Source: Methanomassiliicoccaceae archaeon (lineage in GTDB: Archaea > Thermoplasmatota > Thermoplasmata > Methanomassiliicoccales > Methanomethylophilaceae). From it: a stretch of 35,338 bases of DNA. Under the pieces are notes generated by a model. The model was not told where the DNA came from. It ran no database searches and was given only the letters and a program-made list of their open reading frames with translations. Made by a program: the position numbers and the translations under genes. The DNA is taken from NCBI GenBank assembly GCA_003555025.1, contig PWHV01000009.1, positions 1-35,338 of the forward strand. Direction: 5' to 3'. Below, piece after piece: positions 8,150 to 23,310 of this stretch. Position 1 is the first letter of the stretch, and each line of letters begins with the position of its first letter.

Positions 8150-8805
8150 GGGTCAGCCTTCTGGCTTACACCGAGGACGCCGACCGCATCTGCGCCGCGG
8201 CGGGGAAGTCCTGCTATTCCGCCAACAGCGCCACCTCCCTGCTGGAGGGCACCGATGACGAGCAGGCGGAGAGGATCCTCGGCAAGATAGTGGGCATGGG
8301 CCACCACTCGGTGATAGAGCACGCGTCGTTCACCTTCTCCGTGGAAGGGGCCTCACGGGCGCTGACGCATCAGCTGGTGCGTCATCGTATCGCGTCCTAC
8401 TCGCAGCAGAGCCAGCGTTACGTGTCGCTCAACGAGCCCAGCTTCGTCACGCCGCCCAGCATCGCCGCCGAGCCCGCCCTCAAGGCCAAGTACAAGGACC
8501 TGATGGAAGGGTTGTGGAAGGCCTACCGGGAGATGGCCGAGTCGGTCCCCAAGGAGGACGCCCGTTACCTTCTGCCCAACGGCAGCACCACCAACATCAC
8601 CATGACGATGAACGCCCGCGAGCTGCGCCACTTCTTCTCGCTGCGCTGCTGCAACCGCGCCCAGTGGGAGATAAGGGAGATGGCCGACCGCATGCTCGAG
8701 CTGTGCAAGGACGCCTCGCCAGTGATATTCAAGGACGCCGGCGCCCCCTGCGTGAGCGGCCCCTGTCCCGAGGGGGAGCTGAGCTGCGGCGAGCCGCGGG
8801 GATAG
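8146..8805 (+). CDS. thyX: Flavin-dependent thymidylate synthase ThyX
   Basis: FAD/NADPH-dependent enzyme that methylates dUMP to dTMP using methylenetetrahydrofolate. The 219 aa protein contains the ThyX motif RHR-x7-S at residues 79-89 (RHRIASYSQQSQRY), the MGHHSVIEHASFTF segment and the C-terminal FFSLRCCNRAQWEIRE block. The ATG overlaps the TraB-gene stop, so the two are translationally coupled. The stop is TAG. Its presence suggests thymidylate synthesis independent of dihydrofolate reductase. Confidence 0.97.
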   Translation: MRVSLLAYTEDADRICAAAGKSCYSANSATSLLEGTDDEQAERILGKIVGMGHHSVIEHASFTFSVEGASRALTHQLVRHRIASYSQQSQRYVSLNEPSFVTPPSIAAEPALKAKYKDLMEGLWKAYREMAESVPKEDARYLLPNGSTTNITMTMNARELRHFFSLRCCNRAQWEIREMADRMLELCKDASPVIFKDAGAPCVSGPCPEGELSCGEPRG

Positions 8806-16939: not shown

Positions 16940-17017
16940 GGGCCCGTAGGGTAGCTAGGATTATCCTTTCGGCCTTCGGAGCCGAAAACCGGGGTTCGAA
17001 TCCCCGCGGGCTCGCCA
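16940..17017 (+). tRNA. tRNA-Arg(TCG), integration target of the adjacent element
   Basis: The acceptor GGGCCCG (16940-16946) pairs with CGGGCTC (17007-17013) with one G-U pair. The D-arm is GGGTAGCTAGGATTATCCT. The anticodon arm is TCGGC-CTTCGGA-GCCGA with anticodon TCG (16976-16978). The T-arm is CGGGG-TTCGAAT-CCCCG. The discriminator is G and CCA is encoded. The last 17 nt including the CCA recur at 22160-22176, so the 3' end serves as the attachment site while the gene remains complete. Confidence 0.95.
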
Positions 17018-17018
17018 T
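17002..17018. repeat. attL, 17-bp direct repeat in the tRNA 3' end
   Basis: CCCCGCGGGCTCGCCAT covers the 3' half of the T-stem, the acceptor 3' strand and the CCA. It is identical to 22160-22176. Homology extends leftward over GGTTC-N4 (16993-17001), so 22 of 26 positions match. Confidence 0.9.
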
Positions 17019-17067
17019 ATTCCTTAGCCAGACAATGGAGAAAAATTTCTATTGAACCTTCACCGTA

Positions 17068-18045
17068 TCAGACGCCCTCCTTTCCCTTGGTCTTTTCCGA
17101 CCAGAACGATCTCATTTCCTCTACGGCGGACTTCTGCTCCTTGTCGCAGTAGTTCCTTTGCGTGGTGGCCAAGGATGTGTGACCCATAGCAAGGGAAACG
17201 TTATGGAAGTCTTGACCTTCGTTCACTGCACGTTGACCGAAAGTTCGTCTACATTTCCGGAGGTCAAATCTTTCACCAATATCCGTTTCCACATGGGTCT
17301 TGAAAATTCGTATGCTCTTGTACGAGAGGAAACCGCCGTCATTGAATATCGGCGGGAATAACGCATCCTCGTCCTTTCCACACGAATTAAGTTTGATTCT
17401 TCTTGCTACAAGGTATCTACTGAGTATTTCCACACCGTCAATATGGACAGGCACCCAACGGGCTTGCCCGTAACTACCTTCTCCCTTGACACGTTCAGCG
17501 AATATCTTCGCCCCATTCTCATCAATTATGACGTTATGGACGGAAAGCAACCGGAGTTCCTTAGCACGCAGTCCGGTGCAGATGGCGACAGTTACAAGCC
17601 CATATGCCTCCATAAGCTTCCAATCTTCAACATCGATTATGGAGGCGCGTTCGATTATCATCTCAACGATTTCATCTTCCATCGGTGGAAGGCGAATGTG
17701 ATTTGTTTTTGGAACATGAGAGGGATATCTCACTTTGAAACGATTTACAGAGTCATTGTCAAAATAGACAAACAGCTTGCTGAGATATGAGAGGTCTTTC
17801 TGGATCGTTGTGTTCTTTACACCGCTCTTCTTACGGTATCCGACGAAAATATCAATATCCTTCTCCGATATCTTGCGGGGATTGTCAGAGGATACTTTTC
17901 CGTCACCTTTCAGTTGATGAAATATCTTTCCAATCTGCCTAAGTCTTCTCTTTGTGGTGGCTAATGTCTCATCCGATAGGTGACCGTCTTCCGCAGGAAG
18001 ATATTCGTTCAAACAATCAGTAAAAGGATATCGCCCCATCACCAT
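17068..18045 (-). CDS. Tyrosine recombinase (integrase)
   Basis: 325 aa site-specific recombinase. An N-terminal SAM-like core-binding domain (about 8-110) precedes the catalytic domain. Catalytic residues visible are Arg160 in CTGLRAKEL, Lys187 in RVKGEG, Arg266 in RKCRRTFGQ, His289 in MGHTSLATT and the nucleophile Tyr299 in QRNYC. The usual first His of the HxxR box is Arg263. The gene ends 50 nt inside attL and reads toward the tRNA. It is complete, not split by integration as in SSV-type elements. Its start overlaps the upstream gene by 7 nt (ATGGTGA), so the two are coupled. It is presumed to catalyse integration at the 17-bp site. Confidence 0.93.
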   Translation of the reverse strand: MVMGRYPFTDCLNEYLPAEDGHLSDETLATTKRRLRQIGKIFHQLKGDGKVSSDNPRKISEKDIDIFVGYRKKSGVKNTTIQKDLSYLSKLFVYFDNDSVNRFKVRYPSHVPKTNHIRLPPMEDEIVEMIIERASIIDVEDWKLMEAYGLVTVAICTGLRAKELRLLSVHNVIIDENGAKIFAERVKGEGSYGQARWVPVHIDGVEILSRYLVARRIKLNSCGKDEDALFPPIFNDGGFLSYKSIRIFKTHVETDIGERFDLRKCRRTFGQRAVNEGQDFHNVSLAMGHTSLATTQRNYCDKEQKSAVEEMRSFWSEKTKGKEGV

Positions 18046-18401
18046 ATCTCCAAATCTGAAAACTCTCGATTCTCAAGGTTAACAACGAACTTTTCAAACT
18101 CGAGTATTATGTCGCGTTCTTCATTGGTAAGATTGGACAATGGGAAATCGCGGATGAAAGAGGCCAAACGGCTAATATCAATCAAACGAGACAATTTCCG
18201 GTAAATCAATACGCCTTCTTCATAATCAAATTCTTCATATGTTTCAAATGAAATGTATCCAGACGATCGATTTTTCAATTTGCATTCGGTTTCCGATTGG
18301 CCACCGGCTTCACTACGGCATTGATTGTTGTATCGTATCTGTTCGATACTGTTTAACTTACTAATGTTACTAATATTATTACTAATTACCATCATTACCA
18401 T
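18039..18401 (-). CDS. Small charged protein coupled to the integrase, function unknown
   Basis: Up to 120 aa with no recognised domain. The C-terminal half is acidic and predicted helical (SRLASFIRDF, ERDIILEFEKFVVNLE). It overlaps the integrase start by 7 nt, so a role in controlling recombination, such as a directionality factor, is possible but a guess. ATGs at 18401, 18395 and 18392 are all in frame. A minus-strand ATAAATAG (about 18416-18423) would give a transcript starting near 18392-18397. The N-terminal codons coincide with the TTACTAA repeat cluster, so residues 1-15 are low-complexity. Confidence 0.6.
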   Translation of the reverse strand: MVMMVISNNISNISKLNSIEQIRYNNQCRSEAGGQSETECKLKNRSSGYISFETYEEFDYEEGVLIYRKLSRLIDISRLASFIRDFPLSNLTNEERDIILEFEKFVVNLENREFSDLEIW

Positions 18402-18443
18402 TATTACTAACCAAACTATTTATGTCTTTTCCATAATTAGTAA
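18358..18443. promoter_or_regulatory. TTACTAA repeat cluster between divergent genes (operator or iteron candidate)
   Basis: TTACTAA occurs at 18358, 18367, 18379 and 18404, with related TTACC at 18386 and 18395. The reverse complement TTAGTAA is at 18437-18443. Most spacings are 7-12 nt. The cluster lies between the integrase operon and the AbrB-like gene, overlapping the start of the former. It could be an operator for the AbrB-like protein or iterons for Rep. Confidence 0.5.
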
Positions 18444-18455
18444 CATTGGGATTAT

Positions 18456-18776
18456 ATGGTGTTCGTTGGGAAAACAAAAATCGATGGAACAAGAAGAATC
18501 AGTTTCATCAAAGAACTGGCGGATCTTCTGGAACTCGAGGCAGGGGATGAATTACAATATCATGTGGAGAATGGGAAAATTGTGGTCTATAAAGATACCA
18601 AAATATATCCGGGAGGGTTCGAATTCGAATCGAAGGAGATTGAGCAACGTCTTAAGGAATATGAAAATGAGCGTATAGACGATTTCGTTGACGAAGCAAC
18701 AATGGATCATGATGAATTAGAAAGGAGAGCTTATAAACAATATCTTAAAGATAAGGAAAAAAATAAAAATTTATAA
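18456..18776 (+). CDS. AbrB/SpoVT/MazE-like DNA-binding regulator
   Basis: 106 aa. Residues 1-48 (KTKIDGTRRISFIKELADLLELEAGDELQYHVENGKIVVYK) fit the swapped-hairpin AbrB fold. The C-terminal half is very charged and helical (EIEQRLKEYENERIDDFVDEATMDHDELERRAYKQYL). Such proteins are either transcription regulators or antitoxins; no recognisable toxin is adjacent, so a regulator of the element is more likely. The ATG at 18456 is divergent from the integrase operon across the TTACTAA cluster. Base use is clearly AT-rich. Confidence 0.78.
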   Translation: MVFVGKTKIDGTRRISFIKELADLLELEAGDELQYHVENGKIVVYKDTKIYPGGFEFESKEIEQRLKEYENERIDDFVDEATMDHDELERRAYKQYLKDKEKNKNL

Positions 18777-18797
18777 ACGACCCAAATAGTATCTTAA

Positions 18798-20528
18798 TTA
18801 TTTGCAAGTTGTTTCTAATAAAGAAGCATCATCGTTTAGAACCCCATTCATCTTTACTACGATATACATTCTAAAGGCTAAGACATTCCAATCAACATTC
18901 ATACGCGAAGTACCAACAAACCAACTTTTAATCCGTTTTGGGGCAATTCTAATCGCAAATTTAAAAACTGAAGGTTTTTCTCGCTTGCTATTAGAAAACT
19001 CTTGCGTTTTAACATTTTTTAATACGTATTTAACAAACTCGGGTGGGAGGACAGTCTTAGTGTTCATTGATGACAATTCCGATTCCATCAAATCTACAAT
19101 CGCATCATTTTTCAATATATCTCCCCGAGATTTATTTGCACCATATTTAGCAAATCCAATCTTAGGCATTGACTTTGTAACAATATCTTTATAAAGTCTT
19201 TTATCAGTTCTAAGGCGGTCTGGAGTTCTCCTAATTTCTTCTATTATTTTTCTTGATAATAATGGGTTCAGCACTTCAATATATGGCGTTTTTAAATCGG
19301 TTAATGAAGAGAGTATTGTTGGTATACGATATTCATGATACAGTCTATCTCTGTATGCGGCCAGAGTTTCATCATCTCCTTTATCTAGTATTTCTGGTAT
19401 CGTTTGTTTATGAAAACCGTATTTTTCATAATCTTTTAAATTTTCAAAGTCAGAACAAACTCCTAAACCGGTACTTATCCTTGCTTGTATAGATGAATTG
19501 ACGGGTACCCAACCAAATCCCTCATCGCCTCTAATAATGCCCTCAACACCATCTTCAAATAATTTTTTAAAAATATTGAAACCATCCATATATCCCGATA
19601 TATGGTCTATTCGCCCCTCACCGTTAATTATGAATCTTTCAACTATTTTTTCAATTGGCTCTTCCCCAACATCCGTAAAATAATAATTATGCGGTAATTG
19701 CACGTATTCAGCCAATTTCTTTGCCACATAAGCATCATTGCCTTTTTGATCCAAAGAATGCTCTAACCCCCATGTTATGGTGATCAGTTTTTGATTATCA
19801 GCATCCTCACGATTAATAAAATATAAAATTCCCCTACTATCGTAGCCTCCGGAAAGAGGTAAAACCCATTTCGAATAATCCAATCTTGTCTCTTTTAATG
19901 TTTTTTTAAGAATCTCAATTAACCGAGTCTCAGACGATTGACCATCCTTCTGGTCGTTAATGAATTCCACTCTGTTCTTTTGTTTGCTTATTGTCCACTT
20001 ATGCCTATCTAGAACAATCGTGGTGTCGGGCGGTACAATTTTAAATCGTTTATCCCAAGAATTTGAGAGCCCCATGGATCCGGTTGACATAAACCATGGA
20101 ATGACTTCTTGATTGAATTCAAAACTACAAATTAGCATTGTTATTGCTCTCTGTGAGGTAGATGCTATAAAAACTTCATCATCTTTATAATACCATATTG
20201 TTCTCGAGCCAACAATATCACTAATCAAATTAATGGAATCATTGCCTGCCTGAATTATCACATAGGAGCCGTCCAAATCTTCCTTTTTGGCCTCCCACCA
20301 AGGATATTTTTCACTCAACAAACACCCTAGTAAAACACTATTTTCATGTTCTAAAACCGAATCAACCGGATTTACAATTCCATAAGCAATCCCCTCACTT
20401 CTCGATATTTTTGGAGGATTGGGGGCAATGTTGTCAGGAGATATTTCATTACAAACACATCTCATAGATTCTTCTATATTTGGAGGGTTTAATCGGTTTT
20501 TATAACAAACATAAATGATTTTAGACAT
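18798..20528 (-). CDS. Asparagine-synthetase-like protein without N-terminal catalytic Cys
   Basis: 576 aa, AsnB-related. The N-terminal part (to about 190) resembles the class II glutamine amidotransferase fold (DLDGSYVI, SDIVGSRTIWYY, FIASTSQRAI), but residue 2 is Ser and no Cys follows the initiator, so it should not hydrolyse glutamine. The ATP-pyrophosphatase domain is intact with LPLSGGYDSRG (SGGxDS, 226-231) and a later RGDEGFGW. Known Cys-less relatives catalyse amide or lactam formation, for instance lasso-peptide cyclases, but no precursor or McjB-like partner is present. The gene is the most AT-rich in the window. GGTGA sits 4 nt before the ATG. It appears to be cargo; its substrate is unknown. 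Confidence 0.82.
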   Translation of the reverse strand: MSKIIYVCYKNRLNPPNIEESMRCVCNEISPDNIAPNPPKISRSEGIAYGIVNPVDSVLEHENSVLLGCLLSEKYPWWEAKKEDLDGSYVIIQAGNDSINLISDIVGSRTIWYYKDDEVFIASTSQRAITMLICSFEFNQEVIPWFMSTGSMGLSNSWDKRFKIVPPDTTIVLDRHKWTISKQKNRVEFINDQKDGQSSETRLIEILKKTLKETRLDYSKWVLPLSGGYDSRGILYFINREDADNQKLITITWGLEHSLDQKGNDAYVAKKLAEYVQLPHNYYFTDVGEEPIEKIVERFIINGEGRIDHISGYMDGFNIFKKLFEDGVEGIIRGDEGFGWVPVNSSIQARISTGLGVCSDFENLKDYEKYGFHKQTIPEILDKGDDETLAAYRDRLYHEYRIPTILSSLTDLKTPYIEVLNPLLSRKIIEEIRRTPDRLRTDKRLYKDIVTKSMPKIGFAKYGANKSRGDILKNDAIVDLMESELSSMNTKTVLPPEFVKYVLKNVKTQEFSNSKREKPSVFKFAIRIAPKRIKSWFVGTSRMNVDWNVLAFRMYIVVKMNGVLNDDASLLETTCK

Positions 20529-20764
20529 ATTTTCACCATTATCATTATTTTTAGGAATTATATATTGTTATTACCAGTCATATATCAATCGTCTCTTAAC
20601 AATTTAATAAATATATAAATTAATCCGTTAATAAAATATGGTTCCTATTTGCTGTATTAGAGATATGAATATAATTAGAAACATTACAGTTGTTTTAATT
20701 CAGGCATATACTAATCAAGTCGTACGGTCTCGCTACCGCTTCGACCCCGGACGAGGATTTCGTT

Positions 20765-20788
20765 CGCCCCGCGGATAACCTCGGGGCG
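20765..20788. repeat. Hairpin A
   Basis: CGCCCCG (20765-20771) pairs with CGGGGCG (20782-20788) around a 10-nt loop. It is 16 nt from hairpin B. Confidence 0.6.
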
Positions 20789-20804
20789 CACTCAATCCCC
20801 CCGC

Positions 20805-20827
20805 GGGCAGCGGCGCAACCGCTGCCC
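20805..20827. repeat. Hairpin B, perfect 9-bp stem
   Basis: GGGCAGCGG (20805-20813) pairs perfectly with CCGCTGCCC (20819-20827) around the loop CGCAA. A short T run follows on the plus strand, so it could also end transcription. Stable stem-loops of this kind are common at rolling-circle origins. Confidence 0.65.
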
Positions 20828-20910
20828 TTTATGAGGATAGCCTATGGTGCCTGGAGTAAGGGATGGGAAAAAAAGCCGTAGCTGAAATACAGGAATCAGT
20901 CAAGAACCTA

Positions 20911-20926
20911 GTTACTCTTGAGTAAC
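20911..20926. repeat. Palindrome at the 3' end of the Rep-like gene
   Basis: GTTACTCTTGAGTAAC has perfect 7-bp arms around TT and lies 5 nt beyond the Rep-like stop codon. It may be a terminator for Rep or part of the origin. Confidence 0.55.
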
Positions 20927-20930
20927 GGCG

Positions 20931-22055
20931 TCAAGAGTGCGGAGGATCGGAACCTACGGACAACGTTTTCTCTTCCTTCTTTGCGCGGATGATGTCGCCT
21001 ACCCAAGACGGTATCGTTCTGAGACGGATCCACGGCGATGGCCCCTCAGGAGACGTTTCAGGAAGAAGTCCTATCTTATCCTTGAAGGCCTTGCCGATGT
21101 TGAGGTCCCTGGTGCGGAAACACTTGTTGCAGAAATGCGTCCATAAGGCGGTCCTTAAGGAAGGATTGGAAATCTCATCAATCGAACCGGCCTCCATGAG
21201 TTCGGGAGATCTCTTCAGATCGATGGATTTGACCATATACTTGTAGATATACGACAGCTCGTTCCTGGAGCCCATGAAACGTTCACCGCGGACTATGCCC
21301 TTGATGTCCATTATACCGTGGCTCCAGATGGGATTGTCCTTGAAAGAATCAGGATCGGTGAACGCCCTCCTCCTGTCCTTATCGGTCTTGCCGACGCGAG
21401 CCTGATCCCGACGATTGGCCAAGCGCCAAGATTGTTTTCCGTCCCTGCTGCTGTGCCTCTTTACCAGTATGGACCGGTCAAGTATGATAAGCAGATGCGC
21501 GGCAGGATAGCCCCTGCTCTGCGCCTCCTTGACGACGATCTTCCCATTATGGCCGAATATACTGCTTATGTTCGCTCCGAAATTGTTAAGTTCGCCCCCT
21601 TCTGAGCTTAATAGAAACCAAGCATCCTCCATCTCATAATCCCTCTGTGAGAATGAGAGCGTTATGAACAAATGATTCGTGAACCGATAATTAGATCTCC
21701 ACCCTGGTGCATCGAAATCAAACTCTTTTTTGTCATATAGACGGGCAATCTCCTCAAGTTGTTTCCTTTTACGATAAGCATACTGGCGATTACCTCTCTT
21801 CCGGGTGGTTATGTATTTGATTTCTCCCGTTTCCTTGTTCTTGAAGACATTGTCATTGTCTGTCAAAACCCAATCGAGGAATTCTCGTTGCAATACCTTG
21901 TCACGAAGAGTCGTCGTTCTGGAAATCAACGCATCCTTCAGTTCGCTACCATGCCGCCACTCGCCACCCGAAGAAGATTTGAAACGGTATGGGGCATACC
22001 CTGAGGCCTCCTCGGTACCGTTTGACCCAACGGGTTGTAATGGATTCGATTCCAT
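20931..22055 (-). CDS. Putative rolling-circle (HUH-type) replication initiator
   Basis: 374 aa. The order and spacing of three blocks fit Rep proteins of rolling-circle plasmids: FITLSF at about 130-135 (motif 1), KEAQSRGYPAAHLLIIL at about 176-192 (motif 2, normally PHxH), and SYIYKYMVKSID at about 268-279 (motif 3 with Tyr269, Tyr271, Tyr273 and Lys272). The first metal-binding His of motif 2 is Ala here, so metal binding may be altered. No helicase domain is present. It sits just inside attR, with hairpins at its 3' side. It is less AT-rich than the other element genes. Assignment is from motif pattern, not overall similarity. Confidence 0.68.
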   Translation of the reverse strand: MESNPLQPVGSNGTEEASGYAPYRFKSSSGGEWRHGSELKDALISRTTTLRDKVLQREFLDWVLTDNDNVFKNKETGEIKYITTRKRGNRQYAYRKRKQLEEIARLYDKKEFDFDAPGWRSNYRFTNHLFITLSFSQRDYEMEDAWFLLSSEGGELNNFGANISSIFGHNGKIVVKEAQSRGYPAAHLLIILDRSILVKRHSSRDGKQSWRLANRRDQARVGKTDKDRRRAFTDPDSFKDNPIWSHGIMDIKGIVRGERFMGSRNELSYIYKYMVKSIDLKRSPELMEAGSIDEISNPSLRTALWTHFCNKCFRTRDLNIGKAFKDKIGLLPETSPEGPSPWIRLRTIPSWVGDIIRAKKEEKTLSVGSDPPHS

Positions 22056-22159
22056 CCACGTTAACGTCTACGGTGTCAAAATCACGGCAAATTCTATCGC
22101 CGGAAAATGAGGTTTAATAGAATTATTTCTCAGTTATCTGGCTTAAGCTAGGTTCAGTA

Positions 22160-22176
22160 CCCCGCGGGCTCGCCAT
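22160..22176. repeat. attR, 17-bp copy of the tRNA-Arg 3' end
   Basis: CCCCGCGGGCTCGCCAT is identical to 17002-17018. GGTTC at 22151-22155 also aligns with the tRNA T-arm at the same spacing. No rest of a tRNA is present here. It marks the right end of the element; the Fic gene ends 21 nt further on. Confidence 0.9.
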
Positions 22177-22197
22177 CATCATTCACCAAGATTGTTT

Positions 22198-23310
22198 TCA
22201 GGCTTCCTTGAGATGGCGGAACGGGTCATTGAAACGGAAACGGGTGGCCTTGGTCCTGCCCTCCTTCTCCAGCACGCCCATCTCGACAAGGCGGTTGAGC
22301 CGGTGCCTGATGCGCTGCTCGCCCAGGGACGGCACCCAATCATTGGCGTCATTCACGGTGAACCACGACCGCCCCTTGGCCTTGACGGCGATGGTCTTCG
22401 ACGCCTCGTCGAGCTCGCGGAGCACGTCTTTGCGGCGGAACCCGTCCATGGCTGACACATAGGCGTCATGGAGGGATTCGAGCACATAATCGATGATGGG
22501 CCCGTAATCCTGCGTCTCGTCAGTGTAGGCCAAGAGGTCGTAATAGGTTTCCAAGGCCCCCAATATCTCCTTCTCGATCTTGCACAGCTTGGAATTCTTG
22601 AGGCCCAGCTCCTGCAGCAGGATGTGGAACATCGTCCTGCCAGCGCGTCCGTTGCCGTCTTCGAAGGGATGAATGCTCTCGAACTCATGGAAGAAGAGTG
22701 TGGCCGTGACCACCTCGTCGAACGGCGACGAGTTCAACCATACCAATAATGAGGCCAACTCCTCGGTTATGTGTTCAGGGGGGCAGGTGTGGAAGTATTC
22801 GAAACCGTCCTGGCCGCTTATCGAGGTCCTGTTCTCTCGGAATCCGCCCGCCACGCCTCTGATGCCCGCCTCGCGGGTAAGGAGGCCGTGGACGATTCGG
22901 ACGGTATCGATGCTCCAAGGAAGCGAGAGTTCAACTTCGGTGAAGAATGAGTAAAGATGATTGACTATCTCCTGTCTGGGGCCATCCGTATCTATGCTTC
23001 CTGCTCCGCCCTCCAGGACGGCGGTGGTTATCCTCCTCACCTCCTGCTCGTCGAGGGGGTTCCCCTCGATGGAGACCGACCGGTGGATGTTGGAGGCGTA
23101 CGCGTCCCTGAAGAGCTCCAAATATTCCCGTTCGCCGAAGACCATGCAGTCCAGCTCGGAATCCAGGTTTCTGAGCTCACTCAAAAGCTTGCGGTGCTCC
23201 AATCCGATTCTGATGCGAGGTTCGAACGGTACCTTGCGACGGTGCTTCACCGGATAGCCTTTTGGCTTGTAGATGGAAAAATCCGTACGATTACGGTTGA
23301 CCGTGACCAT
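22198..23310 (-). CDS. Fic-family protein (AMPylator type) with C-terminal winged helix
   Basis: 370 aa. The Fic core HPFEDGNGRAGR (214-225) matches the active HxFxDGNGRxxR consensus, so nucleotidyl transfer to hydroxyl groups of target proteins is expected. An N-terminal inhibitory helix motif SVSIEGN (78-84, S/T-x3-E-G/N) marks an auto-inhibited class II Fic. The C-terminal 80 residues (IRHRLNRLVEMGVLEKEGRTKATRF) form a winged-helix DNA-binding domain, as in the common Fic-wHTH proteins thought to autoregulate. A TATATA (23335-23340) sits about 27 nt upstream of the ATG, indicating a leaderless mRNA. GC-rich like the host, it lies just outside attR. Confidence 0.93.
   Translation of the reverse strand: MVTVNRNRTDFSIYKPKGYPVKHRRKVPFEPRIRIGLEHRKLLSELRNLDSELDCMVFGEREYLELFRDAYASNIHRSVSIEGNPLDEQEVRRITTAVLEGGAGSIDTDGPRQEIVNHLYSFFTEVELSLPWSIDTVRIVHGLLTREAGIRGVAGGFRENRTSISGQDGFEYFHTCPPEHITEELASLLVWLNSSPFDEVVTATLFFHEFESIHPFEDGNGRAGRTMFHILLQELGLKNSKLCKIEKEILGALETYYDLLAYTDETQDYGPIIDYVLESLHDAYVSAMDGFRRKDVLRELDEASKTIAVKAKGRSWFTVNDANDWVPSLGEQRIRHRLNRLVEMGVLEKEGRTKATRFRFNDPFRHLKEA

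Follow-up and report, generated by a model that had tools for sequence, protein, structure and literature searches.

A probable integrative rolling-circle plasmid in a tRNA-Arg gene, with relatives across the Methanomassiliicoccales

We analysed a 35,338-nucleotide stretch of DNA (the window; contig PWHV01000009.1, assembly GCA_003555025.1) from the 1.41-Mb genome of a Methanomassiliicoccales archaeon. Within it, the roughly 5.2 kb at 17002–22176 (the element) had been read as a rolling-circle plasmid integrated in tRNA-Arg(TCG), which we call the original prediction. Variation among related genomes at this site and homologous islands elsewhere support that interpretation, and from its sequence the element is very probably an integrative rolling-circle plasmid, one member of a family that spans the order. 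Support at the sequence level comes from attachment (att) repeats, inverted arms, an intact integrase, a replication initiator (Rep) with two tyrosines, a single conserved origin, a constant circular gene order and a variable cargo slot (Table 1).

The 3' end of the tRNA is directly repeated at both ends of the element, and an intact tyrosine recombinase is encoded between them, two hallmarks of a tRNA-targeted integrative element. The core repeat (CCCCGCGGGCTCGCCAT) is perfect over 17 bp, exactly as claimed before, against a chance expectation of about 0.04 exact 17-mer repeats in 35 kb. Its first 16 bases occur exactly twice in the 1.41-Mb genome, at the two att cores, and the reversed 16-mer used as a control occurs 0 times. 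Alignment of 16993–17018 with 22151–22176 reproduced the reported 22 matches in 26 bases, and the AT-rich block that had been described amounts to 41% GC in the element vs 62% on each flank. The integrase was rightly called complete, as it matches its Pfam profile and retains its catalytic residues (R160, K187, R263/R266, H289 and Y299, invariant among 11 relatives). Three features were absent from the original prediction: terminal inverted repeats, a candidate origin and an operator-like TTACTAAY repeat. The inverted arms are imperfect (36–38 bp) and lie just inside both cores. Their alignment scores 22.5, compared with a maximum of 15 among 500 shuffles, and the arm motif AGCCAGA..AAAAATTCTAT is found at the equivalent position in most relatives. 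As the arms are 5 kb apart in the integrated form and would flank the crossover only in a circle, they provide independent support for excision.

Had close relatives all carried the block unvaried, the original prediction would have been in doubt; instead, they vary. A congeneric second species (G108) carries an integrase that is 95% identical at the amino acid level, at the matching tRNA and beside the matching tRNA endonuclease gene. Its left contig ends within the integrase. The first 99 bases of its right contig, which cover 82 bp of the element and then the core, match the window perfectly, and the identity is lost immediately beyond the core. The shared 690 bp on the left are 92–93% identical and the last 82 bp are 100% identical, whereas the neighbouring chromosomal EndA gene is only 76% identical, which argues that the element moved recently. 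In another genome (G104), the final base of the repeat core is also where the contig stops. A search for an insert-free tRNA-Arg(TCG), as had been suggested, found one in a third genome (G105), where the core of the tRNA is intact and what follows is an operon for 2-oxoacid:ferredoxin oxidoreductase, with no genes of the element. Next to this tRNA lie 11 bp that match the left arm exactly (L178, G105:C10, 105–140), perhaps the scar of a lost element, and G105 is therefore not claimed as a clean empty site.

The protein described before as Rep-like is a relative of rolling-circle initiators by alignment, structure model, fold and profiles. Across an alignment of 25 Rep sequences, Y269-x-x-K272-Y273-x-x-K276 and H187 are invariant, so that Rep has the two catalytic tyrosines (Y-x-x-K-Y) of superfamily I initiators of the His-hydrophobic-His (HUH) class. 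Among these 25 members, Pfam REP_ORF2-G2P (PF23343) matched 20 (best E 8e-7), RepSA of pSAM2 matched 4 (E 8e-4) and Phage_GPA matched 3, with no match to DUF7845 (PF25227, Rep-Arvir). For the AlphaFold2 model of Rep (pLDDT, the predicted local distance difference test score, 86.6), the best fold match in BFVD was protein 1 of Halorubrum pleomorphic virus 1 (HRPV-1; E 1.9e-5), followed by microvirus initiators, and PDB matches were weak (geminivirus Rep, Helitron). Both fold and profiles agree with HUH superfamily I initiators (phiX174/pC194/pSAM2). Judged by its sequence, Rep is related to superfamily I (phiX174/pSAM2-type) initiators and probably works like one, while falling short of strict HUH membership. 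These matches, together with a conserved motif resembling a nick site beside Rep, back the rolling-circle part of the original prediction on the basis of sequence and model.

Downstream of Rep and on its strand, the relatives share the motif GACTTGATAGAGATAACCTGAGTTAAAAC or close variants. A CTTGATA-like motif is present in a single copy, on the Rep strand, in 16/16 tRNA-delimited elements, with GACTTGAT(A) in nearly all of them and CTTGATT in the window. CTTGATA is described as the nick site of pC194-type origins (PMC10378824), and the motif agrees in sequence with a predicted nick at CTTG^ATA in a double-strand origin; a predicted Rep target would be GACTTGATA. When 147 Methanomassiliicoccales genomes were searched with ≤2 mismatches, 33 matches were obtained in 18 genomes, all of them Rep-positive (Fisher P = 4e-15); the window's own copy is more diverged and is not among the 33. 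The reversed pattern had 0 matches across the 147 genomes, and no copy of the motif was found in IMG/VR. In relatives, a GC-rich stem-loop with AGCGNAGC in its loop often precedes the nick motif, and across 22 origins the stem arms pair better with each other than with permuted partners (3.45 vs 2.66 bp, 0/2000). A Glutamine-II riboswitch match at 20758–20807 on the plus strand (E 0.11, below threshold), on the opposite strand from the asparagine-synthetase-like (AsnB-like) cargo gene, was rejected as a chance hit on the GC-rich origin hairpins.

Rep homologues are present in 31/147 Methanomassiliicoccales genomes, with only weak matches elsewhere in the phylum Thermoplasmatota. The named records among the relatives are Methanomethylophilaceae and Methanomassiliicoccales, and the original prediction was right in seeing a Thermoplasmatota-like archaeon. 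We delimited 16 elements of 5–11 kb by their tRNA repeats, using four tRNA genes (tRNA-Lys(CTT) is the commonest; tRNA-Arg, tRNA-Leu and tRNA-Ser have one each). All 16 have Rep just within one end, and in 15 the integrase lies at the opposite end on the same strand. Around the circle, these 15 run Int - attP - Rep - origin without a change of strand. One element (L078) lacks an end integrase and has just a Rep-adjacent second recombinase, and another (L079) is reversed relative to its tRNA with its circular gene order unchanged. Directly downstream of Rep, five elements (L063, L069, L070, L074 and L078), several of them in tRNA-Lys, encode another tyrosine recombinase that is only distantly related and might serve in resolution or alternative integration. 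Two or more elements appear to stand in tandem in one tRNA-Lys(CTT) at L069, L070, L074, L075 and L078, where a new left arm follows the right core. Degenerate integrases with internal stops are common in the order.

The cargo slot, which varies across elements, lies between the regulator and the origin. Restriction-modification or candidate defence genes occupy it in 10 of the 16 tRNA-delimited elements: nine carry DNA methyltransferase or restriction genes (L062, L063, L065-L068, L069, L071 and L075), and the tRNA-Ser element (L079) carries a candidate defence pair. Positions 8365–9825 of L079 strongly match the candidate defence family PDC-M46B (E 1e-117). Others carry an ABC transporter, BspA-type repeat proteins, an HNH protein or radical-SAM genes. 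In the window, the cargo was confirmed as asparagine-synthase-like by PF00733. Since the PP-loop SGG-D-S motif is kept and the N-terminal cysteine is absent, its product would be a ligase without glutaminase activity. A match to a lasso-peptide cyclase (NF033561) was not adopted, as its score is 35 vs a cut-off of 300 and neither leader peptidase nor precursor was seen. No close homologue of this cargo was found in the 147 genomes, and neither the cargo nor Rep, the small open reading frame (ORF) upstream of the integrase or the regulator was matched by PADLOC. A defence role for the AsnB-like gene is suggested only through guilt by association.

The regulator that had been proposed is MazE/AbrB-like, though its PF04014 match falls below the Pfam cut-off, and it has five homologues at the equivalent position in other elements. 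Beside it, TTACTAAY occurs five times in the window against 0.28 expected, with all five copies inside 86 bp, and from its sequence this cluster is likely an operator. The small ORF is a conserved partner of the integrase and may be a directionality factor. It matched no known family in Pfam, PHROG, PADLOC or other profile searches and its structure model is helical with low confidence (pLDDT 65), so an assignment as a known excisionase was rejected.

Table 1 Features of the element and its insertion site (window coordinates).
Feature	Position	Strand	Evidence
tRNA-Arg(TCG), integration target	16940..17017	+	ARAGORN; Rfam RF00005
attL core, 17 bp, overlapping the tRNA 3' end	17002..17018	+	Exact repeat
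Left terminal inverted-repeat arm, probable integrase-binding arm	17023..17059	.	Alignment to reverse complement of 22110-22147
Tyrosine integrase, 325 amino acids, reads toward attL	17068..18045	-	Pfam PF00589 E 3e-12; PHROG integrase E 7e-26
Small ORF overlapping the integrase start; true start uncertain	18039..18401	-	Five other elements have a homologue upstream of int
Operator-like cluster, five TTACTAAY repeats	18358..18443	.	Between divergent regulator and int operon
MazE/AbrB-type regulator, 106 amino acids	18456..18776	+	PF04014 E 3e-4 (below Pfam cut-off); AbrB E 0.013
Cargo, asparagine-synthetase-like protein	18798..20528	-	PF00733 E 6e-5; NF033561 macrolactam cyclase E 5e-9
Candidate double-strand origin nick region, GACTTGATTAGTATATGCCTGAATTAAAAC	20692..20721	-	Motif once per element in 16/16, Rep strand
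Stem-loop GGTC-GAAGCGGTAGCGA-GACC, just 5' of nick region	20726..20746	-	Arm-pairing test
Rep, 374 amino acids, relative of two-tyrosine rolling-circle initiators	20931..22055	-	Y269-IY-K272-Y273, K276; H187
Right terminal inverted-repeat arm	22110..22147	.	Within 82-bp right end 100% identical in G108
attR core, 17 bp	22160..22176	+	Exact repeat; G108 identity stops just past core

Outside the element, a Fic-domain gene directly follows attR (window 22198–23310; PADLOC SoFic E 9e-36), and a Fic protein that is 56% identical is encoded at the equivalent place after the tRNA in G108. The oxidoreductase operon that directly follows the tRNA in G105 is found in G104 beside the gene that follows in the window. 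These differing neighbours suggest that the tRNA flank is a wider exchange hotspot. An exact 14-bp repeat (CCAAGATTGTTTTC), possibly a chance occurrence, lies at 21426–21439 inside rep and at 22186–22199 just outside attR.

Once integrated, the element has no gene upstream of Rep, whose start lies about 105 bp from attR. We propose that the integrase would act on the cores within the tRNA 3' end, recombining them to excise a circle, in which the int operon would extend across attP to take in Rep and finish at the origin. Excision would place the promoter of this operon upstream of Rep, so Rep may be expressed mainly from the circle, where it would nick the origin at CTTG^A and start rolling-circle copying. 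While the element is integrated, the AbrB-like regulator may bind the TTACTAAY cluster and hold the int operon down. Transfer between cells would require outside help, and the cargo (an AsnB-like ligase here, often restriction-modification elsewhere) might benefit the host or stabilise the element. A precedent exists in SNJ2, a temperate pleolipovirus of Natrinema, in which excision assembles an int-rep replication operon that ends at a hairpin origin (PMC13107129), and by analogy we infer that these elements use the same kind of switch.

Several observations weigh against this interpretation. Both the excised circle and any rise in its copy number are predictions from assembled sequence, and so is the lack of a promoter for Rep while the element is integrated. 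Rep departs from the His-hydrophobic-His motif, with A185-A186-H187 keeping the second histidine alone; the first is alanine in nearly all relatives (one, L030, has HIH), and because it is missing, the catalytic activity of Rep is uncertain. The window's nick site, CTTGATT, differs from CTTGATA by one base. Single-sequence DNA folding z-scores for the stem-loop are not significant, and as the origin sequences compared are related, the hairpin is suggestive only. G105 may hold a degraded left arm, making it element-free rather than a proven virgin site. Lastly, homologues had been expected on plasmids or islands: the 16 att-delimited elements with their common integrase, Rep and origin plan bear out the islands, but no homologue was found on free plasmids (PLSDB), in the phage set or on IMG/VR contigs, so "plasmid" here means an integrative plasmid-like element.

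Three other explanations were weighed. The element could be a provirus that has decayed or become a satellite, such as a pleolipovirus-like remnant still equipped with integrase and Rep but dependent on a helper virus for its spread. The best fold match of Rep, to HRPV-1 protein 1 and then to microvirus initiators, fits such an origin, as do the absence of transfer genes of its own and the pleolipovirus-like proviruses known in Methanomassiliicoccales (PMC10919331). However, no structural gene was found in any scanned element despite the constant gene order in 16. The five genes of the window's element have no match to PHROG structural families and offer none of the VP4-like spike or membrane proteins of Pleolipoviridae, its genes as well as its origin are intact and were transferred recently, and IMG/VR holds no match; we consider a provirus unlikely. 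Nicking enzymes and relaxases have a common mechanism. Accordingly, Rep might be a mobilisation relaxase acting at an oriT in a cargo shuttle moved by the integrase only, as the origin motif would equally serve as its nick site and RepSA of the actinomycete integrative and conjugative elements (AICEs) is distantly related to Rep. Its nearest profiles and folds are nonetheless replication initiators, and no FtsK/SpoIIIE-type Tra or coupling protein was matched by Pfam among the scanned ORFs of the element or its relatives, which makes this reading similarly improbable.

Least probable of all, and in our view very unlikely, is a chromosomal island fixed by an old integration, its Rep and origin being relics that are no longer mobile. 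The missing HUH histidine, the degenerate integrases in the order and a circle that is deduced rather than observed would suit such an island. In contrast, the ends are near-identical in a second species whose flanking gene is only 76% identical, the catalytic residues are intact, the origin is conserved, and contigs of related genomes break at the att site or within the element. An integrative rolling-circle plasmid remains the best account of these data.

The likeness to SNJ2 lies in an integrase at one end and Rep at the other of a DNA that integrates as a provirus, with joining on excision shown for SNJ2 and deduced here (PMC13107129). Unlike the element, SNJ2 has virion genes, and its Rep is of the Rep-Arvir type (DUF7845, Rep_trans-like fold), whereas the present Rep matches REP_ORF2-G2P, RepSA and Phage_GPA. 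pSAM2 and the AICEs of actinomycetes also combine a tyrosine integrase and att sites with a phiX174/pC194-like rolling-circle initiator and are both integrative and replicative, but the element is archaeal, has no FtsK-like Tra or conjugation module and differs in gene order (PMC3218068). Bacterial integrative Rep plasmids (pCRESS families) are similarly small and integrative with a rolling-circle Rep; theirs is of the CRESS type with a helicase domain (PMC6668415), whereas the 374-residue two-tyrosine Rep is restricted here to Methanomassiliicoccales, apart from weak matches in other Thermoplasmatota. Plasmids of the pT26-2 family, compared by description rather than gene by gene, likewise integrate in archaea through a tyrosine integrase, while the present elements are 5–11 kb with a two-tyrosine rolling-circle Rep (PMC6972569). 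A 32-kb mobile element of ISO4-H5, from the same order, shares an integrase and DNA methyltransferases but is far larger and has adhesin genes, with no Rep or origin reported (PMC5011839). We found no published description of this family, or of a small Methanomassiliicoccales replicon, in the open-access papers searched; as subscription papers were outside the search, novelty is provisional.

Methanomassiliicoccales are an order of methane producers that are common and important in guts. Going by their sequences, the elements of this family appear to be small DNAs that excise themselves, copy by rolling circle and carry DNA-defence genes between these archaea. The chances seem evenly balanced for a fuller picture, in which these are lineage-specific, defence-carrying elements whose initiator lost one histidine of the HUH motif and whose replication operon forms only after excision; an SNJ2-like switch would then have arisen with an unrelated Rep. 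If this is true, int-Rep operons assembled by excision would give that switch its second, independent example. The shared cargo slot is a place to look for new defence genes, the AsnB-like gene included, and the family supplies a mapped attachment site, integrase, initiator and origin as parts for a shuttle or integration vector.

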